Source of the DNA: a virus
IMG/VR virus record: IMGVR_UViG_3300042806_000390
Coordinates: 1 to 41,857 of that record
Length of the DNA: 41,857 bases
Strand: one strand, 5' to 3'
Of the stretch, positions 1,617 through 20,868 are shown in pieces (positions within the stretch are counted from its first letter, which is position 1; every line of letters starts with the position of its first letter). Below the pieces are notes generated by a model, which made no database searches, was not told where the DNA came from, and was given only the letters and a program-made list of their open reading frames with translations. Made by a program: the position numbers and the translations under genes.

Positions 1617-3227
1617 TTATACCTCAAACTGTGATTTTTTAGGGTATTTGTCTAAAAACTTTTGTTTTATTTGATTATCCCAAACCTTATTTGTTTCCTC
1701 TAAAGCATCATTCAAACACATAACCTTGTTGATATGGGGATTGGCCATGCAGTTTGCAATAAGGGTAATGGGTGTTTTATTAGAAAAATGGTGGTGAAAA
1801 TAAGATTTTTTTGTAACTAACCCAAGATTTTTCATATAAAAATCATAAATATAGACAGTAAAGTTCTTTTTCTCTCTAAACCTTGTTATAGATTCAAGTA
1901 TTTCTTTTTCATGTAAATTATAAACTTCCTCTAATTTTGATTTAAGGTATGGCCTATTTACATGCATGGGTGTAATATAACTGTTTTGGGAAAAAAGTTT
2001 TTCTGTTTCTTCTTTATTAACAAGGAGGCCACTATTAACTATGGCTTGTTTCCATAATGGCATGGGTTCGTTAACACCACTTGATACCTTAAAGTCAGTT
2101 CTAACACCGTCTTTGGTAAAATAGTCTTCTGGAGATACTGAGCCTATAAAGTATATATCGTCATTAGAGTATATAAACTTTTCACTTAAACCAGGTATTT
2201 TGTGAAGAAACATCTCAATAACTTGACTACTAAAAATCGGTAGGTGCTCTACAGGAATAAATTGGTCGTGAGTTATAATTTTAACCCTATCTGTTTTTAA
2301 TACCCAAGTTGGAACTTGACTTGTGCTTTGAACCAGTAAAAAAATATTGTTAATCCAAGGTGCATAAGTTTCAACACCTCTAAACCAATATCTAAACAAT
2401 TCATTCTTTCTAAATCTTTGTTTTCCGTTTGAGTCCTCACGAACATCTTTGGGAGCATATTTATTATAAAGCTCTTGCCAAGCAGTGTCAGAAGAGTCTA
2501 CATAAGGAACCACTATATCTATTTTGTCACTTATTTTTATCGGCTTAATTACAGATGATAAGGCTGCATTTAAAGGAATGTTTTTTTCTAAGTTTTCTCT
2601 TATTTGTTTTGTGTTTGCCCTTAATGCCTTCCAGTCATGATTACCTATAGCCCAAGTGGATGGGACTTTGTTTTCACCAGTATAACGAAAGCTTGTTTCT
2701 GTTAATCCCGTGCTAGTGAATGTGAACACCCTATCAGGGAATAACTGTTTGCACGTATGAACAAAAACAACATCTTCAAAACCTTGGTCTTTTTCAGGGT
2801 CAACATTTGGTAGGTCTACCTTAGAGTATATGTGTTTAGAAATGTATAAAAGATTTAACTGTGAGTGCTCCCAACAAAATACACCCATACTATTAGGTTT
2901 ATTATCTATTTGCCTCAAAAACTCTTTTCCAGATTCCCCCGATATAATAACATCATCATCCATAGTAATCATATTTTCATAGGTTGAATCTAAAAACAGC
3001 TTTCTTAGTGTTTTTCTAGCATTGAGTATTCCCAATTTACTAAACTTATGTATAATCATTTCTCTAGGTGGCTTATAATCCCCCCAGTTTTGAGCAACAA
3101 CCATAATAGGTATCCCAGGGAAAAGCCAGTCCAAAGTAGATAAAAGAGAGTTAAACCTATTTATCCTTAGGTCTCTATCGGGTTGTTTACCTGGAAAATA
3201 GCTAATAATACCTATTACTTTTGACAT
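1617..3227 (-). CDS. Glycosyltransferase-like domain fused to Stealth-family phosphotransferase, 536 aa
   Basis: A two-domain protein. Residues 1-225 resemble a small GT-A-like nucleotide-sugar transferase: GIISYFP at the start, AQNW, and a metal-binding-type MDDD at 89-92. This domain is paralogous to the protein at 9900-10538. Residues about 235-500 match the Stealth capsular-polysaccharide phosphotransferase family. CR1 is DIVVPYVDSSDTAW (about 237-250). CR2 runs 271-372, with RFRKNELFRYWFRG, APWINNIFLLV, and IPGLSEKFIYSNDDIYF. Later histidine-containing stretches (HVNRPYLK, YFHHHF) are candidates for CR3/CR4. Known members transfer hexose-1-phosphate to a glycan. The start at 3227 has an AAGGTG ribosome site and a promoter motif 29 nt upstream. 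Its position after the capsid gene suggests late expression and glycan modification of virion or cell surface (inference). Confidence 0.82.
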   Translation of the reverse strand: MSKVIGIISYFPGKQPDRDLRINRFNSLLSTLDWLFPGIPIMVVAQNWGDYKPPREMIIHKFSKLGILNARKTLRKLFLDSTYENMITMDDDVIISGESGKEFLRQIDNKPNSMGVFCWEHSQLNLLYISKHIYSKVDLPNVDPEKDQGFEDVVFVHTCKQLFPDRVFTFTSTGLTETSFRYTGENKVPSTWAIGNHDWKALRANTKQIRENLEKNIPLNAALSSVIKPIKISDKIDIVVPYVDSSDTAWQELYNKYAPKDVREDSNGKQRFRKNELFRYWFRGVETYAPWINNIFLLVQSTSQVPTWVLKTDRVKIITHDQFIPVEHLPIFSSQVIEMFLHKIPGLSEKFIYSNDDIYFIGSVSPEDYFTKDGVRTDFKVSSGVNEPMPLWKQAIVNSGLLVNKEETEKLFSQNSYITPMHVNRPYLKSKLEEVYNLHEKEILESITRFREKKNFTVYIYDFYMKNLGLVTKKSYFHHHFSNKTPITLIANCMANPHINKVMCLNDALEETNKVWDNQIKQKFLDKYPKKSQFEV

Positions 3228-3443: not shown

Positions 3444-4745
3444 TTATAACTTTTTAAATTGAGTTAGAAATTGATTATGGCACCTTTCTATTTCAGAAGG
3501 ATTCCATATATCATTATTTACTATTTCAACATATTTAATGTTATATTGTTTCTTATAATAGTTTATGTTATCAGGGTGTTTATCCCCGTAACCCTTACTG
3601 ATGGCCTTAATACCAACAAAAACTACCCTATTTAGTATACCATATTCTATTAAGGTTTTAATGATTTTTTCAATATTGTTGTTTAGCTCTTTATTGTTAG
3701 AATCTAAATCCAAAGAGTTAAAGTTAATAGTAAAGTAATAGTTCTTTTCAGTTAATACTTTTTTATAGAAGTCTTTAAATAGAACACACCTTGCTTTTAG
3801 TTCGTTTTGATAGTTAATGTCAGTTGCTTTATTATGAACTATTTGAACTATATCATAATCATAAGTAGTATCAGAATCACCCTTAAATGTCATTTTGTGT
3901 GGGGATAGATTTGGTTTAGACGTTACAATATGTTCGTAATACTTGTCATCTAATAATGCTTTAATACATAAAGGTCCTTTGGTTAAAACATTGTCAACAG
4001 GCCCACGTAATCTATTAACACCGAGATAACCCATACATGAACAATCTCCAGCTAACTGCATAAATTGATAGGGAGATTCTGGATACCAAATTCCTCTTTT
4101 AGAAAAATCAATGTCTTTGTCTAATCCTTCTTGTATAAAAAACTTAACACATTCAATAACCCACTTACCACGCATGAGGCCCCAGTGCCATTGTTTATTA
4201 GACTTTCTACCCCAATTAATGACACTGCCTGTTTTACTAATTAAAAACTTGTAATCCTTAATATAATTGTTTTCTTCAAACTTCCAGGGGTTTGTACTAT
4301 AATCAAATAAATCTAACATAGCATTTTTTTGCCATAAAGTACACATACAGGCAAGGTTCCATTTACCGGGGCTTCTTTCTAATAATTCATCCGATATAGG
4401 TATAGCTTTTTTATCACCATTAAGCTGCAAGTTTATATTAGCATAGTTACCTGTTAGATACTTACATAAGGATAAGACTTTATCGTTGTCTACCTTTTCT
4501 CTAATAAACACATCATCAACCATAAAAAGAATATAGTCATCATTTATTTGTTTAACAGTTTCCCTTACCCTATCTGTCCAATGTTCAATATCAAAATTTA
4601 AAGGGATTGTTTTGTAAAAAGAGTTAATCACAGATTCCGTAGAATATATCACTTCTGGGTGGTTTGGCCAATACTTTTCTAAGCAATGATAAAATGGTTC
4701 AAATAAATCTTTGTTTTTATCACAACTTAACACAACTATTTTCAT
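3444..4745 (-). CDS. Glycosyltransferase-like protein, 433 aa
   Basis: The N-terminal domain (about 1-230) begins MKIVVLSCDKN and carries DDYILFMVDDVFI near residue 70, the DDxF/DxD style of metal-binding motif of GT-A glycosyltransferases. It is rich in W, Y and C and recalls capsule or LPS glycosyltransferases of the same style. The C-terminal domain (about 245-433) looks like a separate Rossmann-like alpha/beta unit and is not assigned. A longer frame reaches back to 4781, but I choose 4745: GAGGAAAACGTA provides a ribosome site, and the promoter motif at 4762-4769 lies inside the longer version. It is the first gene after the capsid terminator and precedes the GT-Stealth gene. The substrate is unknown. 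Confidence 0.7.
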   Translation of the reverse strand: MKIVVLSCDKNKDLFEPFYHCLEKYWPNHPEVIYSTESVINSFYKTIPLNFDIEHWTDRVRETVKQINDDYILFMVDDVFIREKVDNDKVLSLCKYLTGNYANINLQLNGDKKAIPISDELLERSPGKWNLACMCTLWQKNAMLDLFDYSTNPWKFEENNYIKDYKFLISKTGSVINWGRKSNKQWHWGLMRGKWVIECVKFFIQEGLDKDIDFSKRGIWYPESPYQFMQLAGDCSCMGYLGVNRLRGPVDNVLTKGPLCIKALLDDKYYEHIVTSKPNLSPHKMTFKGDSDTTYDYDIVQIVHNKATDINYQNELKARCVLFKDFYKKVLTEKNYYFTINFNSLDLDSNNKELNNNIEKIIKTLIEYGILNRVVFVGIKAISKGYGDKHPDNINYYKKQYNIKYVEIVNNDIWNPSEIERCHNQFLTQFKKL

Positions 4746-4761
4746 TACGTTTTCCTCACAT

Positions 4762-4769
4762 AATTTAGC
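4762..4769 (-). promoter_or_regulatory. GCTAAATT promoter-like motif, copy 3
   Basis: Minus-strand GCTAAATTATGTG, 16 nt upstream of the ATG at 4745, with the ribosome site GAGGAAAA between them. It supports 4745 rather than 4781 as the start. Confidence 0.65.
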
Positions 4770-4800
4770 AAGTTTAAACAAAAGAAGAATACCTTAAAAT

Positions 4801-4871: not shown

Positions 4872-6209
4872 TTAAGAAACAAGTTCGGCTTGAACCACTT
4901 GTGGTAACGCAACAACTTCACCTGCTACGAGCAAGTCTTGGTTGAGCATTTCCAACGCATAGAGCGTGGAGAAACCTTGGTTCATACCACCGTCAGCATA
5001 ACCGAGTAATTGTGTCGGAACGACAGCCATATACGGAGCATAGACAGCAGCACTGGACATCATGTCATCACCGTTGACACCGAGCACGAATTTACCGGCA
5101 CCGATGTTAGGAGTGACGAAGACTTTAAGACCATTTAAGGTACCAGCTAAGTAAGGACCATTAATCTTGCCAGCAGGGGCAGCTTTGAATCCTTTAATGA
5201 ATGACAAGATTGGGAGGATGTTACTTGCAATTAACATATAGTTAGGAGCAAATCTCTTTGTTTTGTCATAAATCAATTGACGACCAATTTCGATGATTTC
5301 CACAAATCCTTCAAAGTGTTCAGCTTTTGAAACACCAGTTGGGACTGTCTTGTTAAAGGTTAACAAGGAAGAAACTTCGGCTTGGGCAATGAGTAAGTCA
5401 GTAATTTCCGTGTCGATTTCATAAGCCAATTGGCCAACAGCTTTTTCAGCTAATTGGTCACCTAAGTCGAAACCATAGTCAGTCTTGGCTTGGAACGCAG
5501 CGATTTGCGAGTAGTACACCGCAACACGACGTGCTTTAGCAACAAGAGCGATAGATTCGATTTTGGCATTGACCGTTGGTAATGCAACTTGAGGAATCAC
5601 TTCGTTGTTATACATATAGGCAATTTTACCAGTGGAAGGCACTAACACTTTACCATCAGTGACGGTTAAGTAAGAAATAGGCGAACCAGCAGCAGGAATA
5701 AACTTGACAGTTTGGCCAGGACCGAATGCGTTAGCAATAACAGGTGTCCAGGCTAAGGTAACTTCAAGACCTTCAGAATCTTCAACAGTGACTGGTTCAA
5801 CAATCGCAGACGATGTCCAGTTTTTGTCAACAGCACCTAATTTGAAAGGTTCGTTGAAGACATCACCTTGTTGTGTTTCACCTTTTGTCGTACCAGAGGT
5901 ATACTTCACATAAGTGATGAACCCGCTGATAGAAGCCATCGGTTGAACGATAACTAAATCCATTGCGATGAGGTTAGGCAAGGCAACAGTTGTAAGATTG
6001 AGCGTAAACTTTTTAAATTCTCCTAAGTCAGCACGTTGGGTACCAACGGAGCTAGCGAATGCTTCGTTCAAAAAGCGATTGGTGTTATTTAAGACCATAG
6101 CAACAGCCATCTTACGATGATTGTCTAAAGTCGCACCTTCATGAGCTTTTGCGAAGACAGATTCACTAACCGCTAAGCGTTTGGAGTATGTTTCTAATAA
6201 ACTAGCCAT
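4872..6209 (-). CDS. Major capsid protein, HK97-fold, T4 gp23-like, 445 aa
   Basis: Length, gene order (directly after the prohead protease) and sequence fit a major head protein. The region LPNLIAMDLVIVQPM (78-91) resembles the conserved P-domain entry of gp23-type capsid proteins. A helical N-terminal segment (1-50) could be the peptide removed by the prohead protease. The ATG at 6209 has AAGGAG 9 nt upstream. There is no GCTAAATT motif in the 39-bp gap before it, so it is probably transcribed with the protease gene and stopped by the hairpin at 4801-4836. Its base composition is visibly more G/C-rich than its neighbours, as expected of a highly expressed gene with selected codons. A small shadow frame on the opposite strand is not a gene. 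Confidence 0.85.
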   Translation of the reverse strand: MASLLETYSKRLAVSESVFAKAHEGATLDNHRKMAVAMVLNNTNRFLNEAFASSVGTQRADLGEFKKFTLNLTTVALPNLIAMDLVIVQPMASISGFITYVKYTSGTTKGETQQGDVFNEPFKLGAVDKNWTSSAIVEPVTVEDSEGLEVTLAWTPVIANAFGPGQTVKFIPAAGSPISYLTVTDGKVLVPSTGKIAYMYNNEVIPQVALPTVNAKIESIALVAKARRVAVYYSQIAAFQAKTDYGFDLGDQLAEKAVGQLAYEIDTEITDLLIAQAEVSSLLTFNKTVPTGVSKAEHFEGFVEIIEIGRQLIYDKTKRFAPNYMLIASNILPILSFIKGFKAAPAGKINGPYLAGTLNGLKVFVTPNIGAGKFVLGVNGDDMMSSAAVYAPYMAVVPTQLLGYADGGMNQGFSTLYALEMLNQDLLVAGEVVALPQVVQAELVS

Positions 6210-7960: not shown

Positions 7961-9520
7961 CTATATTTTATCTACGTATTTAATTCTTTCCTTTAAAAAC
8001 TCTAAATCGCTTGGATAGCATTTAATCTTATGTTTTGGAGTAAATATGGTAACTTTTTCACATCCTTCAAAGGCTCTAACACCAATTGAGGTAACTACTT
8101 CAGGAACATAGATTTCTTCCATATTTGAGCAACCTTTGAAAGCAAATCCTGGGATTTCAGCTTTATTATAATCAGGAACAAATCTAACAATCTTAATAAT
8201 TGGAGCGAATGAGGCTTTAACTCTACCACCAGCATACATGTAAGGTTCACCTTTGGCTAATCTTTCCATGTTTTCCACATCAGTGATAGCATCCACGTTC
8301 TTTAATTCAGAAGCTTTGAGTGCTGGTAATAACCCTTCTTGGTGGATAAAGGTAGCAAACTCAATACTTGGTCTATCATCAGCATCCATGAAGGTTGTAA
8401 CTTCAATACCATTCTTAACGTGGGCTTGGAACTTCTTTGTAACATCACCAGATTTAGGATAGAATATGTAAAGCTTACCTGACTTGGTATAGCTGTCATA
8501 GTAACCTTGATAAGAAGTTGAGGCTGTGCACCAACGGGTACCTGAACCTAACTTGCAACTTGCTGCATAAGTCTTTGGTGACCAAATTTCCCATTTGTCA
8601 TTTTCACCAATGAATTCTGCTTCTTCTCCAAGGTCAGCGTGTTGTTTAGCTTTTCTTGCTTGTTTTGCAACTTGGTTAGCTGTTAATTGGATATTATCCA
8701 AAGCCGTACGAATTTCATCAATTGTTTTATATCTATTAATGTCTCTCATTTCGGGTGGATTAATAAAACGTTTTCTATCGTTAAAGTCAAAGAGGATTTC
8801 ATTAACTCTTCCTAAATCAGCTCCCTTTAATCTTTTTTGTTTAAAGGTGTTAAGAATCCACTTACCGTAAGTACCAAGCTTATCTTGGTCTGCTTGGAAT
8901 GTGGGGTCTAAAGCAATAAGCTTATCAAATTGGTCACGTTTAATGTCTGAGTAGTATTGTGCATGAATGTCGTTTAAACCTTCATCTAATAGAACACGTT
9001 GGGCCAAACTTTCCATGATACTTTCGGGCATGTTAGGCAAAGCACCAGCAGGACGTTGACGATTACCAATTCTTCCAGCACCACCGAAATTTGGTAATTG
9101 ACCACGGTTTCTGCTAATGAATTGTCTGAAAGCTTCTACATAGTCTTTTTCGTTCATCTTTAATAAAGCATTTAAGGCCAGATTAGAATCCATTCCAATG
9201 TCTTTAGCGGCTGTAGCCATTTCTTTTGTAATTTGTTCAATAGGAGTATCGCCTTTAATTACATCAATGATTTCTTCACCACCAGCAATACGGAGGTCTT
9301 TAATGATATCTTCCATAACTGCCTTTTGGTCTAAGCCGAATTCATCACTGACAGCTTTAGCCAAAGAAGCAATTTTACTAACTATCTTTTGATTTATATC
9401 TTCTCCACCTTGAGCTAAAGCAGTTGTAGCTTTTGGGGCTACTGCCATAGGCTTTTCTTTGACAGCTTCGTCAAAATCAGCAGAGTTCATTAATTTTATT
9501 GCTTCTAAGTTTGTTTGCAT
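7961..9520 (-). CDS. GTKWC-domain protein with C-terminal leucine-rich repeat, 519 aa
   Basis: Residues 1-150 are helical and charged. The middle (about 300-395) carries a domain found in many phage proteins but without known function: DKWEIWSP, then GSGTRWC (325-331), then YYDSYTKSGKLYIFY. The protein at 15725-16729 shares it. Residues about 445-500 are a BspA/LRR_5-type repeat (IPGFAFKGCSNMEEIYVP, SIGVRAFEGC). A longer frame begins at 9547, but its ATG overlaps the promoter motif at 9550-9557. AGGAGATTTTTT precedes the ATG at 9520, so I prefer that start. The gene sits between the 79-aa gene and the protease, so a head or virion role is likely but unproven. Confidence 0.8.
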   Translation of the reverse strand: MQTNLEAIKLMNSADFDEAVKEKPMAVAPKATTALAQGGEDINQKIVSKIASLAKAVSDEFGLDQKAVMEDIIKDLRIAGGEEIIDVIKGDTPIEQITKEMATAAKDIGMDSNLALNALLKMNEKDYVEAFRQFISRNRGQLPNFGGAGRIGNRQRPAGALPNMPESIMESLAQRVLLDEGLNDIHAQYYSDIKRDQFDKLIALDPTFQADQDKLGTYGKWILNTFKQKRLKGADLGRVNEILFDFNDRKRFINPPEMRDINRYKTIDEIRTALDNIQLTANQVAKQARKAKQHADLGEEAEFIGENDKWEIWSPKTYAASCKLGSGTRWCTASTSYQGYYDSYTKSGKLYIFYPKSGDVTKKFQAHVKNGIEVTTFMDADDRPSIEFATFIHQEGLLPALKASELKNVDAITDVENMERLAKGEPYMYAGGRVKASFAPIIKIVRFVPDYNKAEIPGFAFKGCSNMEEIYVPEVVTSIGVRAFEGCEKVTIFTPKHKIKCYPSDLEFLKERIKYVDKI

Positions 9521-9549
9521 AAAAAATCTCCTATTTTTATTATTCATTT

Positions 9550-9896: not shown

Positions 9897-9904
9897 AATT
9901 TAGC
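9897..9904 (-). promoter_or_regulatory. GCTAAATT promoter-like motif, copy 6
   Basis: Minus-strand GCTAAATTATATAGG, 23 nt upstream of the ATG at 9873. It overlaps the TAA stop codon of the preceding glycosyltransferase-like gene. Confidence 0.65.
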
Positions 9905-10538
9905 CTTTAAAATCCTTGATTATTTTGCGAGAACGGTCACCCATCTCTTTTTTGACGTATTGACCTTTCCACCAGGTTGAAAACTTATCATTACCACTAT
10001 CGCTCTTTTCATCTAATCCGTGTCTTACAAACATGAAGTATTTACTTGGAAACTTCTTTTTACAAGTTTCAACAAAGACCATATCTTCAAATCCCTGACC
10101 TTTTTCTGCCTCAATATCTTCATAGGATACTAATCCCATTAATGTTTTAGGCATCGCAAATAACTTTAACAGAGTTCCTTTAAATATTCCTATTAAACCA
10201 TTTTTTTCATCTATTTGCTTTAAATACTTATCTGCATCTTCTTTCTTTCCTACTAGTTGACAATCATCATCTAACATGATAATATAATCATAGTTAGACT
10301 CTAAGAACTTTTCCCTAAGCTTCTTTCTTGCCCCTGTTATACCAAGTTTATTATATTCATAAATTACACAGTTTGAAGTGGTTTTAACACTTGAGTCCCA
10401 GTTCTGGGCTATAATCATAATAGGAAGATTAAACAGCTTATCACACTGAACAAGAAGATTTTCAAGTCTATCCTGTCTGGTTTTTCTAGTCCCATCAGAC
10501 GGTAACCAAGAAATGATTCCTATTACCTTTGTAACCAT
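9900..10538 (-). CDS. Glycosyltransferase-like protein, 212 aa
   Basis: This is a stand-alone relative of the N-terminal domain of the GT-Stealth protein (1617-3227). Shared features include VIGIIS at the start, AQNW, KLGI followed by a helix (GARKKLREKFL), a DDD triad at 90-92 (IIMLDDDC) and QGFEDMVFVETCKKKFP. The aspartate triad resembles the DxD metal and nucleotide-sugar site of GT-A enzymes. Its ATG is 2 nt after the stop of the 10541 gene and the ribosome site is weak (GAGAG, 17 nt away), so coupled translation is likely. It lies inside the head gene block, which points to modification of a virion protein (inference). Confidence 0.7.
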   Translation of the reverse strand: MVTKVIGIISWLPSDGTRKTRQDRLENLLVQCDKLFNLPIMIIAQNWDSSVKTTSNCVIYEYNKLGITGARKKLREKFLESNYDYIIMLDDDCQLVGKKEDADKYLKQIDEKNGLIGIFKGTLLKLFAMPKTLMGLVSYEDIEAEKGQGFEDMVFVETCKKKFPSKYFMFVRHGLDEKSDSGNDKFSTWWKGQYVKKEMGDRSRKIIKDFKG

Positions 10539-19992: not shown

Positions 19993-20868
19993 ATGGAGCA
20001 CACACACAAACAAAAAGTGAAGATTTCCTTAGAGGAAGCTAATCGTCAACAATTACTGGCTAAGTCTAGAAAGGCTAAGAAATACTCTAAAAACAACCAA
20101 AGTAAGGGTGTTAATAGGTATGAAAGAAGACTTAAGTCATTAATCTCAGCTTCTGTTAAGGATTACAATATTATTGATATGGACCGTTTCTTTAAACGTG
20201 ACATTCTATCTTTCAGCGTTCCTGTTAGGGGTGAAACTGATACCTACATGGTAAGCCTTGAGCTTCAAGGGGTATTAAAAGAGATTCAACGTCAAATTCG
20301 CTCTAATAAGGGCAAACTTGAGTTTAAGGTAGTCTTATCTAGCTTATCAGCTGTTTTGAACACTGGTGACGTTTATACAGGCTGTACTTGCCCAGATGCT
20401 AAGTATCGTCAAGCCTTCTGGCAAACCCGTAACAACTATAAGGCTGGATATAAAGAATTAAGACCTAGTAATGATACTAACCCCAAGGATGAGCTTGGAG
20501 CAGGTTGTAAGCACGTTATGCTTGTCCTGGCTAACCTTAGCTGGATGTATAAGGTTTCTAGCGTAATCAATAACTATATCAAGTATAGCCGTGATAGACT
20601 TCAAAAGAACTATACAGACTATATCTTCCCCAAAGTCTTTGGTATGAAATATGATAAGGCTATTCAATTACAACTATTCTATTCTGATGAAGAAAGTGGT
20701 TTATTGCCTACTGACCAAGAGACAATAAGCAAGGCTATTGAGCAGGGTTTGAAAGACAAAGATGCTGCTGGTAAGTTTGTTCCAGGCAACGCTATGAGAT
20801 TTCAAAAACAAAACCCTTCGCAAGAAGACGAAGATATTAAAGAAGAAGAACTTAATAATAAGTTCTAA
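19993..20868 (+). CDS. SWIM-type zinc-finger protein, 291 aa, sole plus-strand gene
   Basis: The N-terminal 50 residues are strongly basic. The centre has a SWIM-like CxC...CxH zinc site: C131-T-C133 and C172-K-H174, separated by a lysine-rich insert, with WMYKVSSVINNYIKYSRDRL following. SWIM domains bind DNA or protein. The C-terminal 30 residues are acidic. It is the only plus-strand gene here, with a sigma70 promoter, a copy of the phage motif and a terminator. The ribosome site is weak (AAAGG, 13 nt before ATG), and an ATG four bases earlier in another frame yields only 17 codons. It ends directly against the opposing gene. It may be a regulatory, DNA-binding or virion protein; I cannot choose. 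Confidence 0.8.
   Translation: MEHTHKQKVKISLEEANRQQLLAKSRKAKKYSKNNQSKGVNRYERRLKSLISASVKDYNIIDMDRFFKRDILSFSVPVRGETDTYMVSLELQGVLKEIQRQIRSNKGKLEFKVVLSSLSAVLNTGDVYTGCTCPDAKYRQAFWQTRNNYKAGYKELRPSNDTNPKDELGAGCKHVMLVLANLSWMYKVSSVINNYIKYSRDRLQKNYTDYIFPKVFGMKYDKAIQLQLFYSDEESGLLPTDQETISKAIEQGLKDKDAAGKFVPGNAMRFQKQNPSQEDEDIKEEELNNKF
20801..20834 (-). terminator. Possible terminator of the 20869 gene inside the SWIM gene
   Basis: On the minus strand CTTCG (20833-20829) pairs with CGAAG (20820-20816) across an 8-nt loop, with one more U-G pair, followed by GGTTTTGTTTTTG. The stem is short, but it is the first U-rich hairpin after the stop at 20869. Confidence 0.45.

Follow-up and report, generated by a model that had tools for sequence, protein, structure and literature searches.

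A gene at one remove from the major capsid gene of a phage encodes a protein in which an N-terminal GT-A-like domain is fused to a Stealth phosphotransferase domain. The gene lies in the window, by which we mean the whole 41,857-base fragment of IMG/VR record IMGVR_UViG_3300042806_000390 that was analysed, and which also carries gp23-type capsid, T4-type portal and prohead protease genes. Because the fusion occupies a capsid–neck slot in which glycan genes interchange among relatives, and because it has no apparent membrane segment, we favour modification of the virion over remodelling of the host surface as its role, and we give an even chance to the proposal that it is a soluble late two-domain enzyme that puts a phosphodiester-linked sugar on the virion. 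Both the enzyme family and the idea of glycan modification by phages are known; here they are joined in a new architecture and place, and the comparison of the capsid–neck slot across relatives is new to this work.

A GT-A–Stealth fusion in the head-gene region

The fusion gene is intact, starts with ATG on the minus strand and encodes 536 amino acids (Table 1). A single gene, 3444–4745, separates it from the capsid gene, which confirms the coordinates and the proximity to the capsid gene that had been claimed for it. This intervening gene had no match in Pfam or NCBIfam and no convincing one in PHROGs; its C-terminal half is found again in cassettes of the relatives L069 (where it is fused to a GT-A domain), L101, L103 and L111. 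An NCBIfam search with three window genes and four relatives gave no match. By capsid protein, the nearest cultured phages are SP-15 (Bacillus), LIS04 (Listeria) and GXN1 (Streptococcus), at 26–33% identity. No membrane segment was apparent in the fusion or in two companion genes (the highest 19-residue hydropathy was 1.52), and no flippase, polymer exporter or capsule locus was noticed in the window.

The 13-bp motif GCTAAATTATATG occurs nine times in the window at one mismatch or fewer, compared with 0.125 expected from first-order Markov sequences, and four times exactly, compared with 0.025. Eight of these nine copies lie within about 60 bp upstream of starts, and the motif precedes the portal gene, gene 3444–4745, the fusion and gene 1193–1561. 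We infer that it is a phage promoter element, probably a late one. The original prediction had assigned the fusion a copy of a phage promoter motif; the shared upstream motif stands, 24 bp before the reading frame, and its function as a promoter is putative. The head-gene region and the shared motif set agree with the further claim that the gene is integrated into the phage. Of the larger window genes, only 19993–20868 lies on the plus strand; it has its own copy of GCTAAATTATATG immediately ahead and was without a match in a PHROG search. A protein encoded between the portal and protease genes (7961–9547 in the window, 5489–7075 in L010) bears a GTRWCTA-type motif and, at its C terminus, an LRR_5 stretch (29.9 bits, cut-off 27.7). 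L010, L067 and L147 represent a single contig that agrees completely with the window phage over the stretches compared, and they are not independent evidence.

Table 1 Features of the fusion gene and its surroundings in the window
Feature	Position	Strand	Basis
GT-A-like + Stealth fusion, whole gene	1617–3227	−	Profile, PDB sequence and fold matches
N-terminal GT-A-like domain, residues 1–211	2595–3227	−	40% identity to gene 9900–10538; GT-A structures in fold matches
DDD triad of the GT-A domain, D90-D91-D92	2952–2960	−	Invariant in 13 homologous domains
Stealth phosphotransferase domain, residues 234–536	1620–2528	−	Profile, sequence, alignment, fold
Stealth conserved region 1 (IDIVVPYVDSSD...)	2448–2525	−	Pfam score under cut-off
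Stealth conserved region 2, with R271, E338 and N355-D356-D357	2103–2417	−	Pfam, PDB sequence match, alignment
Conserved region 3 equivalent, with catalytic H422 and R451	1875–1964	−	Alignment; Pfam CR3 without hit
CLND motif of conserved region 4, residues 504–507	1707–1718	−	Alignment; Pfam CR4 under cut-off
Repeated upstream motif GCTAAATTATATG, 24 bp ahead of the fusion start codon	3252–3264	−	Motif count
Cassette neighbour gene, 433 aa from the ATG at 4745 (ORF 3444–4781)	3444–4745	−	No family assigned
GCTAAATTATATG motif, one mismatch, ahead of gene 3444–4745	4757–4769	−	Motif count
Stand-alone GT-A paralogue, 212 aa, between portal and protease genes	9900–10538	−	Weak PHROG glycosyltransferase hits
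Major capsid protein, gp23 type; anchor of the capsid–neck slot	4872–6209	−	PF07068, 114.8 bits
122-aa gene; flanks the cassette with the LRR gene	1193–1561	−	Similar 115-aa ORF in the same order in L068
LRR_5 (BspA-type) gene	3–1193	−	LRR genes share the capsid–neck interval with cassettes in L101 and L108

The Stealth half keeps the catalytic residues of its family

Stealth_CR2, the most conserved region of about 100 residues, matched in Pfam with 114.3 bits (cut-off 39.4; E = 4e-33), as expected from the CR2-like motif and Stealth domain first proposed from the sequence. The CR1-like motif proposed with it was recovered in part: IDIVVPYVDSSD is at the expected place (compare IDVVYTF or similar) and D237, V239, V243 and D247 are among the nearly invariant columns of the alignment, but the Pfam score of 14.6–18.9 bits is under the cut-off of 27.2. 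CR4 also scored under its cut-off (18.5 bits, cut-off 27.4), with CLND present at residues 504–507, where CLND or CIND is expected. Pfam CR3 had no hit in the 536-aa protein; the alignment places H422 and R451 in the equivalent region, in columns with a conservation of at least 90% among Stealth relatives.

In the PDB, the sequence matched GNPTAB of human and of zebrafish (E = 9e-26) as well as CpsY (E = 1e-20). The AlphaFold model had a pLDDT of 88.0 when built with 32 sequences (65 with seven), and its Foldseek matches included human GNPT (E = 1e-18) and CpsY (TM 0.83–0.86 by target length). Residues shown to matter in human GNPT are R322, E389, NDD 406–408, H956, R986 and N1151 (PMC11418123), and those in CpsY are E305, N322, D324 and R419 (PMC10668966). 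Their counterparts are all kept in the phage protein, as R271, E338, N355-D356-D357, H422, R451 and CLND 504–507. Together, the profile match, the PDB sequence and fold matches and the kept catalytic residues make it close to certain that the predicted protein is a Stealth-type sugar-phosphate transferase with an intact site. The profile match and the catalytic residues on which the original prediction was to stand or fall are thus both present, and the predicted structure has the CpsY/GNPT fold.

The N-terminal half likewise looks as it had been described, a GT-A-like domain with a DDD triad. Besides the triad, an ED pair and R18, Q45 and W47 (small-gene numbering) are invariant or nearly so in the 13 homologues. 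GT-A structures (K4CP, EXTL2 and GT8) were among the fold matches of the whole model; Pfam assigns the domain to no family.

Exchangeable glycan genes between capsid and neck

A scan with the capsid protein yielded 80 loci. The conserved gene after the slot encodes a neck protein or head–tail adaptor. The capsid-to-neck distance is 59–190 bp in relatives that carry no cargo, namely L074, L082, L099, L102, L131–L133, L135, L140, L143 and L144 and 3.3–9.6 kb in other relatives, with several kilobases in the cassette-bearing ones and some relatives in between. When the Stealth_CR2 profile was run over 49 whole records with a related capsid gene, five were positive, all in the head region. The Stealth gene lies 1.7, 3.4, 3.9 and 7.0 kb from the capsid gene in four long records (76–223 kb); under uniform placement the product probability is approximately 1.9e-5 if these records are taken as independent, which they may not be. 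The GT-A family was found in 9 of 42 records, and every copy except that of L011, which belongs to another lineage, is in the head region or the capsid–neck slot. The farthest head-region copy, in L108, lies 13.7 kb downstream of the capsid gene and beyond an array of LRR genes, which comprises nine tandem BspA-type ORFs (L108:13029–21306).

Several arrangements of the slot include a Stealth gene. L111 has a gene-3444 domain, a GT2–Stealth fusion and a GT-A gene; L101 has two LRR genes, a gene-3444 domain, GT2–Stealth, GT-A and GT8; L139 has a cytidylyltransferase with a weak HAD-phosphatase match, Stealth and GT-A; and L118 has a cytidylyltransferase and Stealth, followed by the end of the locus examined. 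In L069, a GT-A gene, a fusion of GT-A to the gene-3444 domain and a Stealth gene lie between the portal and protease genes. The slot of L103 is filled by a cytidylyltransferase, a gene-3444 domain, a TagF-like glycerophosphotransferase (86 bits, cut-off 22), GT-A and GT-A+GT8 before the neck gene, that of L109 by GT8, and that of L113 by GT8 and pyruvyl transferase, with formate-THF ligase beside the glycan genes. In L068, which has a capsid protein 91% identical to that of the window, PS_pyruv_trans takes the place of gene 3444–4745 and the fusion, and is followed by 115-aa and 441-aa ORFs that resemble the 122-aa and LRR genes of the window.

The slot is thus an accessory locus with recurrent glycan genes, most of them adding charge; its profile matches include CTP_transf-like, Glyphos_transf (TagD/TagF-like), GT8 and PS_pyruv_trans. 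Many relatives have no cassette, so the cassette is not needed for assembly. Relatives also carry non-glycan cargo in the slot, namely formate-THF ligase, SAM synthetase and restriction-type or endonuclease genes, and the cultured phage GXN1 has there a protein with fibronectin-type III repeats; because of the non-glycan cargo, location by itself does not prove a virion role.

The cytidylyltransferase genes (L103:8120–8509, L118:13442–14152 and L139:13821–14531) adjoin Stealth or TagF-like genes, which hints at a CDP-polyol donor. Those of L118 and L139 carry an extra, weak HAD-phosphatase-like match.

Stealth genes elsewhere in phages

A pattern scan found 19 viral contigs with Stealth; near copies and close kin (L004–L007, L016/L023, L017/L020 and L021/L022) were not counted apart. 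A stand-alone Stealth gene lies immediately ahead of the T4-type portal gene in L013 (Portal_T4, 214 bits). In L004–L007, Stealth comes just after the tape measure gene and precedes a GT2-type gene, and the prohead protease gene lies farther along; in L014, L016 and L019 it is just ahead of the tape measure gene or of an ORF of tape-measure size. In L003 it follows tail genes, in a tail module with GT2 and GT11 (fucosyltransferase) genes. Some hits in metagenome-assembled genomes (MAGs; L035, L037, L041, L042 and L046) group with the phage sequences or match them, and these may be prophage or phage contigs.

The GT-A–Stealth architecture of the window recurs in two contigs. The copy in L002 is 61% identical, ends at the contig end and stands in tandem with a small glycosyltransferase gene, near a DNA polymerase ORF; that in L011, a 175-kb contig, has 532 aa and lies near DNA ligase and helicase ORFs (all these neighbours were read by eye). 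Other forms of fusion are GT2+Stealth (L101 and L111), GT-A+gene-3444 domain (L069) and GT-A+GT8 (L103). The approximately unbiased (AU) test rejected a single clade for the Stealth parts of the window, L002 and L011 (P = 0.007), so probably either separate events joined Stealth to this glycosyltransferase domain or the Stealth part was exchanged. For the Stealth genes of the slot, a single origin was not rejected (P = 0.29).

Between positions 5122 and 5254 of L002, just ahead of the fusion gene, a short broken stretch, IKLYWWGKIPNIEDYYSG, resembles the start of the pyruvyl transferase of L068 and is perhaps a remnant of a gene replaced by Stealth. A Treponema MAG encodes a GT2-like domain fused to Stealth (L024:7224–8918) and a Clostridia MAG a doubled Stealth protein (L025:5394–7097), with domains named by eye in both; fusions of such kind therefore exist in bacteria too.

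Proposed role in virion modification

For the activity, donor, acceptor and benefit of the fusion enzyme, we infer the following course. The Stealth half would transfer a sugar-1-phosphate from a host-made nucleotide sugar, probably UDP-HexNAc or UDP-hexose, to an acceptor hydroxyl, leaving a sugar attached through a phosphodiester. Making or extending the acceptor glycan would fall to the GT-A half, perhaps together with the paralogue 9900–10538 and gene 3444–4745. The lack of an apparent membrane segment makes it likely that the acceptor is cytoplasmic, and the placement among head genes, the shared motif and the interchange with other charged-group enzymes make a late virion protein the likeliest one, the capsid protein first, or a head-decoration or tail protein. 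Particles would then leave the cell under a negatively charged phosphoglycan coat that could change adsorption, contact with antibody or mucus, or resistance to host factors. Covalent glycans occur on capsid proteins of the mycobacteriophages Che8 and Rita, as summarized in PMC11256854, citing Freeman et al. 2023. Against a virion role, the fusions of L002 and L011 adjoin the replication-type ORFs named above, not structural genes. Tentatively, and with less than even expectation, we extend the proposal to a T4-like lineage in which an exchangeable phosphoglycan cassette (Stealth, TagD/TagF-like, pyruvyl transferase and glycosyltransferase fusions) would coat the phages' own heads in an anionic layer like a capsule or teichoic acid.

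The enzyme could instead alter a cytoplasmic step in the synthesis of capsule, teichoic acid or another surface glycan of the host, so that superinfection is blocked or receptors are masked and progeny are not trapped. The families involved fit such a role: characterised bacterial Stealth enzymes are part of surface-polymer pathways, as are the TagD, TagF and pyruvyl-transferase genes that take the place of Stealth in relatives (PMC10668966, PMC5974469). The closest Stealth proteins of cellular origin are also encoded in bacterial genomes, and non-structural cargo is found in the slot. We nevertheless consider remodelling of the host envelope unlikely, given the absence of an apparent membrane segment from the fusion and its two companions and of any noticed flippase or polymer exporter from the window, a motif that the fusion has in common with the portal and other genes, and the repeated placement of Stealth in head and tail modules of unrelated phages.

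A poorer, though real, prospect, which the original prediction had not considered, is hypermodification of DNA, with Stealth adding a sugar phosphate and the GT-A domains adding sugars to a hydroxylated base, as in SP-15. The DNA of that phage contains dihydroxypentyluracil with glucose and phosphodiester-linked glucuronate, and a TagF-like enzyme is part of the proposed pathway (PMC5977210). SP-15 and LIS04 are the closest cultured phages by capsid protein, the small GT-A paralogue weakly matches the beta-glucosyl-HMC-alpha-glucosyltransferase family (E = 3.5e-4), and the fusions of L002 and L011 are near replication-gene ORFs. However, the cassettes sit among capsid and neck genes, and the ThyX/Thy1 profile, which found two places in SP-15 and one in LIS04 as a positive control, was absent from the five cassette-bearing records L011, L139, L111, L101 and L069. 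L011, with its 175 kb, also has no gene of the thymidylate synthase family; L139 and L113 have one each, as does L132, where no Stealth or GT-A copy was found. The absence of PF00303 had been considered as a sign of no base hydroxymethylation and was dropped, because the control SP-15 is also PF00303-negative; the Thy1 profile was added.

It is very unlikely that the fusion is a moron without virion function, that is, an enzyme in a mobile-cargo hot spot whose target would be a different product of phage or host, for example a small metabolite or the BspA-type LRR proteins encoded nearby. The variability of the slot and the repeated presence of LRR_5 genes next to the cassette (window, L101 and L108) fit this view, but glycan genes recur across separate relatives in several fusion forms, unlike random cargo, and the fibronectin-type III repeat protein in the GXN1 slot is compatible with particle decoration.

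If virion modification is correct, phages decorate virions or a different late product with sugars joined through phosphodiesters, as in capsules and the mannose-6-phosphate tag, and do so with enzyme sets that can be exchanged at a single locus. This would give a defined place in which to seek virion glycosylation beyond mycobacteriophages, would bear on phage immunogenicity, mucus binding and persistence, and would provide a source of small soluble phosphotransferases. The long-standing question of why many phages keep glycosyltransferases among structural genes is now testable.

Relation to known systems

The animal GlcNAc-1-phosphotransferase is a membrane-bound enzyme that acts on lysosomal enzymes in the Golgi. 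GNPTAB is the best PDB match of the phage protein in CR2 and in fold, and its five mutation-tested residues have phage counterparts (PMC11418123), whereas its Notch, DMAP and EF-hand insertions are missing from the phage protein. CpsY of M. tuberculosis and the SacB/Csx-type hexose-1-phosphate transferases have in common with it the fold, the catalytic residues and the order of CR1–CR4, of which CR1 is under its cut-off in the phage protein and CR3 is placed by alignment (PMC10668966). In contrast to bacterial Stealth enzymes, the phage version follows a GT-A domain and is encoded among the head genes of a tailed phage, and neither a capsule locus nor an exporter was noticed in the window; Stealth polymerases described earlier had been regarded as single-domain proteins (PMC5974469). 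Cps1B and CslB do combine an N-terminal GT-A domain with a phosphosugar transferase in one chain, as the phage fusion does (PMC5974469), but their phosphotransferase half is TagF-like (GT-B), whereas that of the fusion is Stealth. With the TagF-like gene in the slot of L103, both solutions occur in the lineage.

Among phages, the cluster F1 mycobacteriophages Che8 and Rita use their own glycosyltransferases to glycosylate capsid proteins, and the account summarized in PMC11256854 names no Stealth or phosphotransferase enzyme. SP-15 shares with the present lineage the phosphodiester-linked sugar chemistry and a TagF-like gene, but its sugar phosphate sits on DNA; its genome has no Stealth gene and no GT-A relative of the present kind, and a single short hypothetical gene separates its capsid gene from the neck gene after it. 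The PF11380 profile likewise found no Stealth in LIS04 or GXN1. Among the best 50 BFVD matches, the only viral structures annotated as Stealth were two proteins from Megaviridae environmental samples; these belong to eukaryotic giant viruses, have 276–287 aa and lack a GT-A fusion. Three different phage Stealth proteins had no match by tblastn, a sequence rather than a profile search, in 50,697 phage records, PHROGs had no Stealth match for the 536-aa protein, and our literature searches found no paper on phage Stealth enzymes. One candidate report, PMC3097231, merely cites an H-NS-like plasmid protein nicknamed Stealth.

Apparent recoding in related loci

The Stealth and glycosyltransferase ORFs of L101, L111, L118 and L139 were considered as pseudogenes and this was rejected: they are open when TGA is read as tryptophan, and the loci gain or keep a high coding density. 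With this reading, the coding fraction of the capsid loci of L101, L103, L108, L109, L111, L113, L139 and L146 rises from 0.24–0.61 to 0.81–0.95, and L075, L077 and L088 read better with TAG as glutamine. The window is intact under the standard code, but of its 28 listed genes in the correct frame a single one ends in TGA.
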